A DNA stretch of 64,000 bases from Blastocystis sp. Blastoise (taxonomy: Eukaryota; Sar; Bigyra; Opalinata; Blastocystidae), in NCBI GenBank assembly GCA_039096225.1, contig JBBPEB010000013.1:585501-649500 (forward strand). Reading direction: 5' to 3'. A program made the position numbers and the translations under genes. Under the pieces are notes generated by a model that worked only from the letters and a program-made list of their open reading frames with translations, made no database searches and was not told the origin of the DNA. Below, piece by piece: positions 20,852 to 64,000 of the stretch (the first letter of the stretch is position 1; the number at the start of each line of letters is the position of its first letter).

Positions 20852-20923
20852 GCCTTGCTAGCTCAGTGGTAGAGCGTTTGTCTTGTAAACAAAAGGTCCT
20901 TGGTTCAATCCCGAGACAGGGCA
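20852..20923 (+). tRNA. tRNA-Thr (TGT anticodon)
   Basis: Complete cloverleaf of 72 bases with no intron. Acceptor 5' GCCTTGC pairs with ACAGGGC except for one C-A mismatch at the base of the stem. The D-arm is GCTC/GAGC. The anticodon stem TTTGT/ACAAA closes the loop CTTGTAA, giving anticodon TGT (Thr, ACA codons). The T-arm is CTTGG/CCGAG with loop TTCAATC. The discriminator is A. A downstream T-rich run (ATTTTTCATTTTT) is a plausible RNA polymerase III terminator. An identical copy lies on the other strand at 28104-28175. Confidence 0.95.
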
Positions 20924-28103: not shown

Positions 28104-28175
28104 TGCCCTGTCTCGGGATTGAACCAAGGACCTTTTGTTTACAAGACAAACGCTCTACCACTGAGCTAGCAAGGC
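28104..28175 (-). tRNA. tRNA-Thr (TGT anticodon), second identical copy
   Basis: By eye, all 72 bases are identical to the tRNA-Thr at 20852-20923, but on the opposite strand. Identity continues for about ten bases past the 3' end (TTTAATTTTTCA) and one or two bases before the 5' end, then stops. The T-run after the gene is again a plausible polymerase III terminator. Confidence 0.95.
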
Positions 28176-59678: not shown

Positions 59679-60056
59679 TTAGGAAGTCCTAATTTTGGAC
59701 AACGAAGTATGACTTCAGATTTCGAAACACAATTATATATGATCTCTGAAAACCGTGATTATATCCTTTTTCATTTATTCAATATTTTATTACTATAATT
59801 AATATTCAAATATATATCCTTAACAATGTACTTATATCAATGATGAATAATGAGATTGATGATATTTTCTTTTCAAAAGATGTATTCTTTATTATATATA
59901 TATATATAATATATATTATTTATTCTATTTATATTATAGAATCAAACCTTACAATCCAATACGTTTCAAGATCCCTCACGAATCCCTCCTGCGTCAACAA
60001 TTCATCATCCATTAGCAATTCGATTCTTAGCATATCTTGGGAAATATACTTTATAA
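57544..60056 (+). CDS. PGS1: phosphatidylglycerophosphate synthase (PGS1-type, PLD superfamily)
   Basis: Mitochondrial enzyme of cardiolipin synthesis: CDP-diacylglycerol plus glycerol 3-phosphate gives phosphatidylglycerophosphate. The start is MFVKNRLPCFQVNANNIK; after a 37-base intron comes VIHKPDGFYNTLL, then TRIYCSSLYLGNETQEKSF, MNWILDGCRGTRGHGDSSLD (the LLD.TRG.RG site) and LLLPLQQTFPNQ. The first HKD is VYHIKIYIFDNKVILSGANL then SKTYFTDRIDRY. The second follows FITSSPQANSFFQDP and reads YNHATWSFHAKGLW, with SPNFGQRSMTSDFETQ. The C-terminus is HHPLAIRFLAYLGKYTL and TAA. About ten introns, three of them (TA)n. Both catalytic His and Lys pairs are present. No strong mitochondrial presequence is visible in the first 15 residues, so an upstream exon is possible. 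Confidence 0.9.
58722..58762. repeat. (TA)n microsatellite in PGS1
   Basis: Dinucleotide run within the intron before the exon encoding VYLYPTFQLHPKPYNID. Confidence 0.8.
59157..59212. repeat. (TA)n microsatellite in PGS1 intron
   Basis: About 27 TA units between donor and acceptor of one PGS1 intron. Confidence 0.85.
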
Positions 60057-61013
60057 ACAAACAAAATAAATTTATAATCTATGTATTGTTATGTTGTTTT
60101 AACATTTATATACTAAAGATAACAATTCTTCTTCTAAATAAACAAAACACAATAAATATCAATTCAATGTATTTAATGATAAGAATACATCAAGTACTTT
60201 TGTAATAAGACATGAAATAGATATATATTTCTTTTGAGTTTTACACTTTCAATCTTTTGTATTCTTACAATATTAAAAATAATAATTCTTCTTAAATATA
60301 TAAAGAATCTATTTAGTATCAGAGGACCCGAAGAAGCAACACATAGAAGTTATGACTTAAATATTTATATCTATACATTTCTTCTCAAGAATGTAGATAT
60401 CTTTATAGAACTGTCCATACCAAATAAAACAGTAATCTATGTATATATAAGTATATAACTATCTTTTCAATCTTCAGGTGTCCCTCATCATTTACTACTA
60501 TAGTAATATATAGAGATACATAAAAATATAAATAAATATATAGATAGAAACCCTACAATTCACACAATAAGCCATCCAAATAAATAAAAGATTTAAAAAT
60601 ATAAATATATATATATATAAAATCTAATAATTATAAGTAAGACAATAGAAAATGAAAAAAAGAAAATTGAATATATAAAAGAAAATGCAAAATATAAAAA
60701 GAAACACAAAGAGCAGTAAGTATTCACTTATGTTCTTAAATAGAGACATTTTATTCATACATATTCCTTCATATTCAACATATCTATAATCAATTATTGT
60801 GAAAGTCACATATAACGTATTATATATATATATGAATGAATAGTTTGTAAGCTAACCATTAATATATTATATACATATTAAACACAACCTTCGTATATAA
60901 TGATAATAATAAGTATTTCATGTAATATATTGACTTCACAGAAAGAATATATTGTTAAATATAAATATATTTCTTCTGTTTAATGTAAGGCGAACAATAT
61001 TATATATATATAA
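60057..61013. other. gene-free AT-rich DNA
   Basis: Almost 1 kb downstream of PGS1 with no credible gene. Confidence 0.45.
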
Positions 61014-61438
61014 GGAATGAGGTGTAAGCATTCCAGGAATAAAATAACTAATGATGAATAATATATATATGTAGTTTATAAAGAATGATATAAGCCTTTC
61101 ATATCCTGTCTATCATAACTTTAAAACATATATATATAAACGATACATTTCACAAATATATTCAATCAATAGTTATATTGTTTCTTATTCACAACATATA
61201 TATATAATCATAAAGAATGAGGTGTAAGCATTCTTTAGTATATATACTTATAGATAATAATAGAGAATGAGGTGTAAGCATTCTTTAGTATATATACTCA
61301 TTGATATAATATAGATAAATATATAGAATGAGGTGTAAGCATTCTTATATGTATATTATCCCTAACTATATTCCTAACCTGTCCACTTAGGAATCCAAAT
61401 ACGAAACAAACCATAAGAATGAGGTGTAAGCATTCTTA
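61014..61438 (+). repeat. five dispersed copies of a hairpin with loop AGGTGTAAG
   Basis: The 19-base core GAATGAGGTGTAAGCATTC occurs five times: about 61015, 61215, 61265, 61326 and 61417. Arms GAATG and CATTC pair; the loop AGGTGTAAG is invariant. The closing pair is G-C in the first copy and A-T in the other four. Copies 2 and 5 extend to eight base pairs with different outer pairs (AAAGAATG/CATTCTTT and TAAGAATG/CATTCTTA). The flanks between copies differ, apart from a short TTTAGTATATATACT shared after copies 2 and 3. See the findings. Confidence 0.9.
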
Positions 61439-61642
61439 TATATACAATATTATACTTTCTATATGCCTGTCTTATACAGAAAGATATAATAATTCGACAA
61501 CTAATTATATACATATATATATATATAATATATATACTTTCTATATGCCTGTCTTATAAAGAAAGATATAATAATTCGACAACTAATTATATACATATAT
61601 ATATAATATTATACTTTCTATATACCTGTCTTATATAGAAAG
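61370..61642 (+). repeat. hairpins with CCTGTC loops in ~80-bp tandem repeats
   Basis: Three tandem units start near 61455, 61537 and 61614. Each has arms CTTTCTATAT(G/A) and TATA(C/A/T)AGAAAG around loop CCTGTCT, followed by AATAATTCGACA. The third copy forms a perfect 11-bp stem. A related hairpin at 61370-61394 has an unrelated 8-bp stem, ATTCCTAA/TTAGGAAT, and loop CCTGTCCAC. A further CCTGTC at 61105-61110 may sit in an ATGATA/TATCAT stem. Confidence 0.85.
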
Positions 61643-61708
61643 AAATAATAATTCGACACCAATCAGTATATATATATAATATATATACAAATCAACCATC
61701 ATCATAGA

Positions 61709-61726
61709 GCTGAAGGCGTTTTCAGC
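61709..61726 (+). other. isolated hairpin GCTGAA/TTCAGC
   Basis: A 6-bp stem around loop GGCGTT in unusually GC-rich local sequence, just after the CCTGTC repeats. It may belong to the same structured element. Confidence 0.6.
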
Positions 61727-62373
61727 AAAATTCAGGATATCACTGGATAATAGATAATCATAAACATATCTGTTTCATATCGAATCCAATAAACAAAAAT
61801 AATAATAATAATATACATATATATATAAACATCATCAAAAAAAAAGAATATTCAGACCATGCAACACAGAATCCATAAGAAGTAATCATCTTAAAAGTAA
61901 TTCCAAAGAGAATCAATAGTAAATATATCATAGTAGTAAAGAAGAGAGGAAGACTTAACCATAATAATTAAAAGGAATAAAATACCAAAAAAGAAAGACA
62001 TTCACAAATATATAATAATATGTATTACAAAAACAGAAGACCAATAAATAATCATAGTACATAAATAAAAGATAGAAGAATAGAACCATAAGTTTCATTT
62101 CAAAGTCTATATAAATATAGAAATAGATTGGAAATAGAAATATTTCTTTTCTTTTTAAAATTTTATCGTGTCAAAGAATAAACATATATACATATAATAA
62201 AAATAATAATCAAAAACAAAACAACAATAGTAAAGTAGAGATATACTCCAGATTTTAATAGCAAAGTTATCGATATGTTGTCCATCAAGCCAAAAAGAAA
62301 GTATAGCTAGCATACACTATTCTAATCAACCCATGTTATCCATCATATTTCGAACACTTTTGAATATTTGAAT

Positions 62374-62540
62374 TTTTTGTATTGCAGTTTTTTGCAATTT
62401 ATTTTTTTGTATTGCTTTTTTTGCAATTTTCTTTTCTTTTCTTTGTTTTTTGTATTGCAGTTTTTTGCAATTTTCTTTTTTTTTTGTATTGCAGTTTTTT
62501 GCAATTTTCTTTTCTTTTTGTATTGCAGTTTTTTGCAACT
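62374..62540. repeat. minisatellite with ATTGCA-G-TTTTT-TGCAAT hairpin
   Basis: Five copies of a 30-45-bp unit built on TTTTTTGTATTGCAG and TTTTTTGCAATTTTC. Each includes an ATTGCA/TGCAAT inverted repeat; the second copy is slightly reduced. On the minus strand this reads as Lys/Gln/Thr repeats (LQKTAIQK), but I do not think it is coding. Confidence 0.85.
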
Positions 62541-62779
62541 TATTTCTTTCTTTTTTTTTATTTTGTACCATGGAATCAGACCAATATACGCATAAGTAAA
62601 GGCATCATCTATAGACAAACAGCTACGACACAAATATACTTCATTATAATTTTCCATTTTGATAATAGTATTTGTTAATATCCATTTATAGAAGTATTAA
62701 ATATATATTTAATATACTAGATATAAAAGATTACCAAATTCAAAAATAATAATATAAATAATAGGAGTAAGGTATATCA

Positions 62780-63031
62780 TCAATATAATATCATTAATAG
62801 AGGAGGAAGAAGTAAATAATATATATGAAGTATTAAAATAATAAAAAGTGAAGTAGTAAGAAGTATGAATAAAAGAAGAGAAGTATAGAGTAACCATACA
62901 GAAAATAAATCATAAAATAGGACATACAAAATAAGTATAAATACCATATTGAATATAATACTATAAAAAATAGTTATTCGATAAATAATACCCATTGTTT
63001 CTGAATGAATAAAATCAAGCATAGTACCCAT
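62780..63031 (-). CDS. possible polytopic membrane protein exon
   Basis: ATG frame starting MGTMLDFIHSETMGIIYRIT, followed by several hydrophobic stretches (FNMVFILILYVLFYDLF; LLLFILLTTSLFIILIL). A nearby minus frame at 62530-62657 starts MENYNEVYLCRSCLSIDDAF and might be another exon. The T-rich strand favours false hydrophobic frames, so this is weak; no family recognised. Confidence 0.25.
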   Translation of the reverse strand: MGTMLDFIHSETMGIIYRITIFYSIIFNMVFILILYVLFYDLFSVWLLYTSLLLFILLTTSLFIILILHIYYLLLPPLLMILY

Positions 63032-64000
63032 ATCATCAATAAATTTTCAAATATTATTACATCATATATACAACTCAATTATAATTCGATCCTTCTATAG
63101 AAACACAAATGACCATATAAACATACAATGTTCCACAATAAAGTTCATCATAGCACACCATCAAGAACCATAGTCACAATGAAGAGAATAAGATGATCAG
63201 CAGATAATATAATATCAAACAATATAATATACAAGAAGAATAACGTAAAAGGAAGTAGATAAATATACGATAGAAGGTAAGAAGAATAAATATAGAAATC
63301 ATATTAAAGTATAATACAAGAGCAGAAATCAATATTATTTAATTCATAAACCAGACACATAAGAAAATTGAAAAACATCTAATAAAATTAGAATACATTA
63401 TAGTATACAGAGGTGTAGATTTGCAAAAAAAAATAACCAAGGAATTTCGACACATTAAAACACTCTAATCATAGGAACAAAGAGGAATCAATCCAATAGA
63501 GCCTTTAATGACTCACTATAGATATTTTTAAAAAACTCCAAAATACCATTTATCATCATCCACAGAATTGAAATAGAGACCAATCTACCAATATAGTACC
63601 ACCACGAACCACGAACCGAATTGAACCACCACACCAGATCCACAACTGCCTTAGGCCTCATAGAAGTCAGTCACCAGAACCAAGAAGTGATTATAGTTTT
63701 ATTATAAATAATTTAAAAAAAAGAAAGTAAGAAAAAAAAGTAAAAACAATTATATAAAACAATATATATAAAACAATATATATATATATAATAACCATGA
63801 CAAAATCATACAACAAATAATTCATCACAGCACGAAACAAGGAACAACAAGGAACAAGGAACAAGGAACAAAATGAAAATAAAACTTGTCTTCATGTTAC
63901 AGAAGTTGCGTAATTAATTGTAAAAATAATAAAAAATATATATATAAATAAATAGTTACTAAATCGCTTCTACGTCAATGAAATGAACTTCTACAATGAA
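63032..64000. other. gene-poor right edge
   Basis: A-rich plus strand with a less AT-rich patch at 63575-63690 and a tandem GGAACAA heptamer run at 63839-63872. No confident gene. Confidence 0.4.

Follow-up and report, generated by a model that had tools for sequence, protein, structure and literature searches.

The genome of Blastocystis sp. Blastoise (Stramenopiles, Bigyra, Blastocystidae; 33.3 Mb in 34 contigs) contains, at one locus, an array in which two stem-loop families are interleaved, one presenting the loop AGGTGTAAG (family A) and the other the loop CCTGTC (family B), with AT-rich linkers between the hairpins. The array spans positions 61014–61642 of the window, by which we mean the whole stretch of 64,000 nucleotides that was analysed (C16:585501–649500), and it lies mid-contig, at ~646.5–647.1 kb of 2,164 kb. 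The individual features are collected in Table 1, and all positions are given in window coordinates unless a contig is named.

Table 1. Hairpins of the array and the spacer that holds them (window coordinates).
Feature	Position	Strand	Description
Spacer	60057–64000	.	no detectable genes; holds the array; extends beyond the window as far as RPL7 (C16:651622)
Family A copy 1	61014–61034	+	GGAATG-AGGTGTAAG-CATTCC, 6 bp
Possible decayed family A copy	61083–61100	+	GAATGATATAAGCCTTTC; loop and 3′ arm changed
CCTGTC lacking a real stem	61105–61110	+	longest perfect stem 3 bp
Family A copy 2	61211–61237	+	9 bp
Family A copy 3	61261–61287	+	9 bp including one G-U; tandem duplicate of copy 2
Family A copy 4	61325–61345	+	6 bp, longer if a bulge is allowed
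Family B hairpin 1	61370–61394	+	ATTCCTAA-CCTGTCCAC-TTAGGAAT, 8 bp
Family A copy 5	61413–61439	+	9 bp
Family B hairpin 2	61455–61483	+	CTTTCTATATG-CCTGTCT-TATACAGAAAG
Family B hairpin 3	61537–61565	+	as hairpin 2, with an A/A mismatch
Family B hairpin 4	61614–61642	+	CTTTCTATATA-CCTGTCT-TATATAGAAAG, 11 bp perfect

Results

Family A: an exact core within variable flanks

Family A is defined by five exact copies of GAATGAGGTGTAAGCATTC within 421 bp (at 61015, 61215, 61265, 61326 and 61417), all on the + strand and unevenly spaced (200, 50, 61 and 91 bp). The existence of a five-copy hairpin family, first proposed in a sequence-only reading of this DNA, is confirmed: every copy folds alone into a stem with a 9-nt loop, at −6.2 to −7.7 kcal/mol (z −2.2 to −2.8). 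In 100 dinucleotide shuffles, with up to three mismatches allowed, matches to GAATGAGGTGTAAGCATTC averaged 0.04 and never exceeded one. A further candidate at 61083–61100, whose loop carries a 2-nt deletion and a substitution, aligns with a score of 19, a value that positions 1–60000 of the window reach once on the + strand (22 at ~15331). It was not reported by the covariance model and is only suggestive of a decayed sixth copy.

All five copies have the same 19-nt core. The proposal that the family is not the product of simple duplication fits copies 1 and 5, whose flanks have diverged (agreement of 0.45 on the left and 0.30 on the right, against 0.32 on average, and 0.55 at the 95th percentile, for random local 20-mers), but it does not fit copies 2 and 3, which are tandem duplicates (94% over 50 nt). 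The left flank of copy 1 agrees with those of copy 2 (0.60) and copy 4 (0.55) at or above the 95th percentile. The array as a whole departs from a minisatellite, that is, from head-to-tail units with copied flanks throughout, in that family A copies 1, 4 and 5 have diverged flanks and the spacing is uneven; the minisatellite pattern does fit family A copies 2–3 and three of the family B copies.

Changes in the family A stems

The loop of family A had been described as invariant, and it is identical in five of five copies; however, it is no more conserved than the inner stem, and because the two are equally invariant the constancy of the loop provides no separate evidence. Nine stem pairs were counted, among which the five inner pairs show no variation, three show two-sided change and one changes on one side only. 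The first outer pair is G-C in copy 1 and A-T in copies 2–5, and this is the only compensatory change that leaves all copies paired. Hence, the earlier suggestion that the outer pairs change together is correct for the first of them but only in part further out, where two of five copies lack pairing at the second outer position, two of five at the third and one of five at the fourth. Compared with the three pairs that show two-sided change, column shuffles average 1.4, and 56 of 500 shuffles reach three.

Perfect pairing extends beyond the core by 1, 4, 1, 1 and 4 pairs in copies 1 to 5, and by 1, 4, 4, 1 and 4 when G-U is allowed. Of 20,000 draws of random local flanks, 0.75% and 0.36% pair as far, and with copy 3 omitted the values are 0.68% and 1.7%; flank pairing thus exceeds local chance in all four versions of the test. 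When the right flanks were permuted among the copies, 8 of 120 permutations reached the observed pairing by Watson-Crick rules and 16 of 120 did so with G-U, the identity being counted in both cases; among the 44 rearrangements that give every copy another's right flank, none reached the observed 11 Watson-Crick pairs (maximum 9) and three reached the observed pairing with G-U allowed. Within family A, then, covariation is suggested but falls short of proof.

Family B: one loop on unrelated stems

The second family, of which the sequence-only reading makes no mention, is interleaved with the first. CCTGTC occurs ten times on the + strand and once on the − strand in 78.5 kb, and five of the ten + strand sites fall within the array (61105, 61378, 61466, 61548 and 61625), with perfect stems of 3, 8, 4, 4 and 11 bp; the 4-bp stems counted for hairpins 2 and 3 are in a register that differs from that of the 11-bp stem. 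Placed in the register of hairpin 4, hairpin 2 has six outer pairs, an A/C mismatch, three further pairs and a closing G-U. The five + strand sites outside the array have perfect stems of only 1–3 bp. Three of the family B copies are units 77–82 bp apart, and a whole-genome search for the 29-nt form with up to three mismatches returned three sites, all within the array.

No sequence relationship links the 8-bp stem ATTCCTAA to the 11-bp stem CTTTCTATATA, and therefore one loop is held by different paired arms. We regard this as the best evidence that a stem-loop, beyond mere sequence, may have been kept, and it is mostly through family B that the sequences support selection on a fold. The original argument, from a conserved loop and a covarying stem to selection on a fold, is thus supported as to the fold, but the covariation is weaker than was claimed. 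Counter-evidence exists within family B as well: the mismatches in hairpins 2 and 3 each break a pair without compensation, and the site at 61105 is stemless.

Stem clustering and predicted folding

To count stems, we required them to be perfect, at least 8 bp long with at least two G/C and varied letters, and to enclose loops of 3–10 nt. Seven such stems occur in 78.5 kb, four of them within 432 bp of the array (61211–61642) and three elsewhere; for comparison, seven were counted in 70 kb of background made up of seven other stretches. None of 500 dinucleotide shuffles of 61000–61699 reached the four observed there, which are not independent because two of the four have the family A core. Under looser rules, the observed four stems (7 bp, one G/C) are matched by 4 of 500 shuffles and the observed seven (6 bp, one G/C) by 12 of 500, and under the 6-bp rule a 700-nt window at 73501, which contains the end of a hAT-like element, equals or exceeds the array windows. 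These tests were chosen after the region had been seen, so the small fractions overstate the case. The sequence in question, at about C16:659.5–660.3 kb, looks like a hAT-type transposon end by its terminal motif AGAGATGGGCAAAA; it has a long fold-back (GTAGCTACAAG...CTTGTAGCTAC), next to which lies a frame resembling a BED zinc finger.

Clusters of at least four identical complex 19-mers per 1 kb are found at three places in 78.5 kb, namely the array, a T-rich tract at 62374–62538 and, at 68.5 kb, repeated sequence that looks like a protein repeat. By the same criterion, the seven 10-kb background stretches yielded one tandem repeat, and six stretches picked as matches to the array query yielded three clusters (two exon-like arrays and one more). 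The T-rich tract lies in the same spacer as the array (62373–62538), and its four exact copies of a 19-mer are within TTTTTGTATTGCAGTTTTTTGCAA, itself a short TTGCA/TGCAA fold-back.

The global folding energy of the array is unexceptional. Over 700 nt it gives z −3.7 on the + strand and −2.8 on the − strand, and two 450-nt array windows have z ~−3.2, a level equalled or passed by 4 of 87 grid windows (extreme −5.18) in a grid that itself includes one array window, at z −2.10.

When folding was predicted in context (60950–61700) with unlimited span, the pair probabilities of family A copies 1 to 5 were 0.96, 0.97, 0.98, 0.21 and 0.87 on the + strand (four of five at least 0.87) and 0.99, 0.98, 0.92, 0.00 and 0.00 on the − strand (three of five). 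Restricting pairs to 100 nt changed these to 0.97, 0.50, 0.66, 0.23 and 0.97 (two of five) and to 0.99, 0.69, 0.69, 0.11 and 0.22 (one of five), respectively; copy 4 never exceeded 0.23. For family B hairpins 1 to 4, taking the best pair near the expected one, unlimited span gave 0.97, 0.13, 0.60 and 0.63 on the + strand and 1.00, 0.12, 0.73 and 0.99 on the − strand, and the 100-nt limit gave 0.77–1.00 on both. Family A leans toward the + strand, and the G-U of copy 3 would be A-C on the other; family B without a span limit leans toward the − strand, where the A/C of hairpin 2 would be G-U.

A spacer without detectable genes

The spacer measures ~6.07 kb in all, from about 60057 to 66121, and separates a PLD/PGS1-like gene from the gene for ribosomal protein L7 (RPL7). 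The upstream gene, on the + strand, contains the PLD active-site motif (PF00614, E 7.8e-5), presumably encodes phosphatidylglycerophosphate synthase, to judge by its motifs, and has its stop codon at ~60054–60056 (by eye). RPL7 starts at C16:651622 (window coordinate 66122; PF08079 E 1e-16, PF00327 E 2e-16), ~4.5 kb downstream of the array. Downstream of RPL7, at C16:654.0–654.3 kb, a gene carries a PTEKPTEEPTE-type tandem repeat; its product is perhaps a surface or secreted protein.

The region had been described as gene-free over 4 kb; it indeed has no detectable genes, but it is longer than that. All stop-to-stop frames in the 6.07 kb are at most 117 aa, a Pfam search with three spacer frames gave no match, and the best codon scores in six 1-kb spacer bins (7.9–15.2 bits) are at shuffle level (maximum 14.8 in 50 shuffles, with a median of 30.3 in 60 other bins). 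A coding gene in the spacer is unsupported by these three measures, of which the codon score, trained on exons partly from the same window, also fell below 15.3 in 11 of the 60 other bins, including both bins with PGS1-like exons; short exons could therefore still lie in the spacer. Next to the mean spacers of 615–1,687 bp reported for three other Blastocystis subtypes (PMC5608401), the spacer looks long for the genus.

The Blastocystis poly(A) motif TGTTTGTT is present at 10 sites in 78.5 kb, both strands counted, which is too few for it to serve as a marker of transcript ends. The same motif is reported once per 2.8–3.1 kb in ST1, ST4 and ST7 (PMC5608401). Polyadenylation may create stop codons less often in Blastoise, or another motif may be used.

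Searches of the genome, databases and literature

With up to two mismatches, GAATGAGGTGTAAGCATTC was not found elsewhere in the 33.3-Mb genome, which places it on one of 34 contigs (C16). Three mismatches add two single sites elsewhere, one a loop without a stem and one a stem with a changed loop. A genome-wide search for other GAATG-loop-CATTC members, which the sequence-only reading had called for, found none by plain patterns: the loop patterns VNNNNAGGTGTAAGNNNNB and TNNNNAGGTGTAAGNNNNA matched 40 and 6 sites, and of these 46 AGGTGTAAG sites only the five array copies have a 5-bp stem, the best of the other 41 having three contiguous pairs and four in all. Read backwards, the patterns matched 78 and 16 sites, more than in the forward direction, and the loop is therefore not enriched in the genome. 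With five copies at one locus at up to two mismatches, the family lacks the many loci of a dispersed mobile hairpin, and with the 19-mer on C16 only it lacks the distribution of a DNA site present on all chromosomes, such as a centromere or origin; a sequence that differs per chromosome may still allow such a site.

A DNA search with 60900–61800 as the query returned at least 146 genome matches, and 40 of 69 first-look candidates were scored. Leaving the array aside, family A accounts for one of the matches (on C32), and almost every other match involves the AT-rich end of the query, where family B also lies. A wider family was considered and rejected: the matches on C10 and C28 consist of exon-like units in tandem, joined by AT-rich linkers, that on C32 is AT-rich, and no copy of family A or B was found, on the basis of parts of C10, C28 and C32 that were read as sequence and of the match table for the remainder. 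The stretches at C10:140.85–142.95 kb and C28:391.1–393.2 kb (minus strand) resemble each other closely. Both are tandem arrays with a unit of ~83 bp, made up of alternating exon-like pieces (TCCTCTAACAATCCTATTCCTTCTATTAG) and AT-rich linkers in the manner of an amplified mini-exon with its intron; one 16-mer occurs 23 times in the C10 stretch and another 17 times in the C28 stretch.

At gathering score, Rfam identified only two tRNAs in the window and no family for the array, and in the spacer and its edges at E ≤5 it gave four matches of 15.6–22.2 bits, all under their gathering scores of 37.6–50. Two tRNA-Thr(TGT) genes, at 20852–20923 (+) and 28104–28175 (−), are 7 kb apart and have equal covariance scores of 60.7 bits. 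Viral contigs contained no exact match to GAATGAGGTGTAAGCATTC, and prokaryote genome contigs contained one, inside a Methanocorpusculum ORF that we take to be PPX/GppA phosphatase-like; we treat this single match as chance, and a viral or prokaryotic origin was set aside. Neither the sequence nor its reverse complement is printed in any paper of the collection searched. Judged by title and the start of the abstract, the matches listed for Blastocystis non-coding RNA, hairpins or lncRNA included no such RNA, and those listed for Blastocystis and centromere included nothing relevant.

Discussion

It is worth considering what such an array might do. Our tentative reading, held with somewhat less than even confidence, is that the 6-kb spacer gives rise to a structured non-coding RNA in which the hairpins would be repeated docking sites for RNA-binding proteins. 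The array would then be part of the transcript, its stems would hold up two kinds of loop, and several weak sites would sum to firm binding, as in other repeat-hairpin RNAs. The copies, their stems and their clustering are shown, and pattern searches of the genome turned up neither family at a second locus; transcription of the stretch, from one strand or the other, binding of proteins and any effect on the cell are inferred. There is also a slight chance that A and B hairpins kiss and so build the repeated scaffold of a lineage-specific structured RNA. By eye, the AGGU of loop A complements ACCU in B hairpins 1 and 4 (closing pair plus loop), the corresponding bases in hairpins 2 and 3 being GCCU; this four-base complementarity may well be chance.

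A rival reading is a neutral local repeat, in which pieces would have been copied in the spacer by slippage or unequal exchange, with AT-rich flanks that pair easily and a palindromic seed that arose by chance. Copies 2 and 3 of family A and the three regularly spaced B copies fit it, hairpins come easily in this spacer (248 of 3226 19-mers elsewhere in its in-window part hold one of at least 5 bp, or 22 of 986 among those with at least six G/C), and the observed changes and pairing are also reached by 56 of 500 column shuffles and by 8 and 16 of 120 right-flank permutations. Yet the same 19 bases stand amid near-background flanks in copies 1 and 5, and 1.7% of 20,000 shuffles of the family A 19-mer hold a hairpin of at least 5 bp. 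Two palindromic families, one with two unrelated stems, and a count of ≥8-bp stems that none of 500 shuffles reaches also weigh against neutral copying, both tests having been chosen post hoc, and we consider it somewhat unlikely, though a serious rival. An exact core with diverged flanks, in five same-strand copies unevenly spaced over 421 bp, would also suit an array that works as DNA, with GAATG-N9-CATTC as the inverted-repeat site of a dimeric DNA-binding protein that controls a neighbour such as RPL7 or marks a site of replication or segregation. A spacer longer than the three subtype means of 615–1,687 bp (PMC5608401) is in keeping with this. However, a simple half-site dimer needs no constancy of the nine inner bases to match that of the arms, the kept loop and changed stem sequence of family B are left unexplained, and a 19-mer on 1 of 34 contigs is not common to all chromosomes; a DNA array, too, seems to us somewhat unlikely, though again a serious rival.

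A further explanation draws on analogy. Some mitochondrial genomes contain hairpin elements that seem to insert without their flanks, and a short mobile unit that did so here would leave an identical core amid diverged flanks, as is clearest in copies 1 and 5. Such a unit would, at up to two mismatches, have to be restricted to 421 bp out of 33.3 Mb and to have inserted five times on the same strand, and we consider it very unlikely.

The structured non-coding RNA that we tentatively favour would, if transcribed, be a repeat-hairpin RNA in Blastocystis, a very common gut protist. The array is known from one locus in one lineage, and it supplies short exact probes, so that transcription and protein binding are cheap to test.

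It is informative to set the array beside known systems. Iteron and transcription-factor site arrays consist of ~20-bp same-strand repeats with uneven spacing and inverted half-sites, all of which the Blastocystis array shares, but here a second hairpin family is interleaved and no adjacent replication gene was identified. The double-hairpin or palindromic elements of fungal mitochondria are short hairpins with constant loops, varying stems and AT-rich spacers, and the likeness extends to each of these; in contrast, those elements are dispersed through organelle genomes and the Blastocystis array was found at one nuclear locus. In layout, the array, known here from DNA alone, resembles the XIST A-repeat (PMC10870365), and we claim by this analogy neither sequence similarity nor membership. 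The A-repeat comprises short conserved repeats, of which humans have eight and a half, that can form hairpins (PMC10870365), and both arrays combine short repeats that can form hairpins with less conserved linkers. They differ in that the A-repeat is mammalian with U-rich linkers, whereas the Blastocystis array joins two loop families by linkers that are AT-rich.
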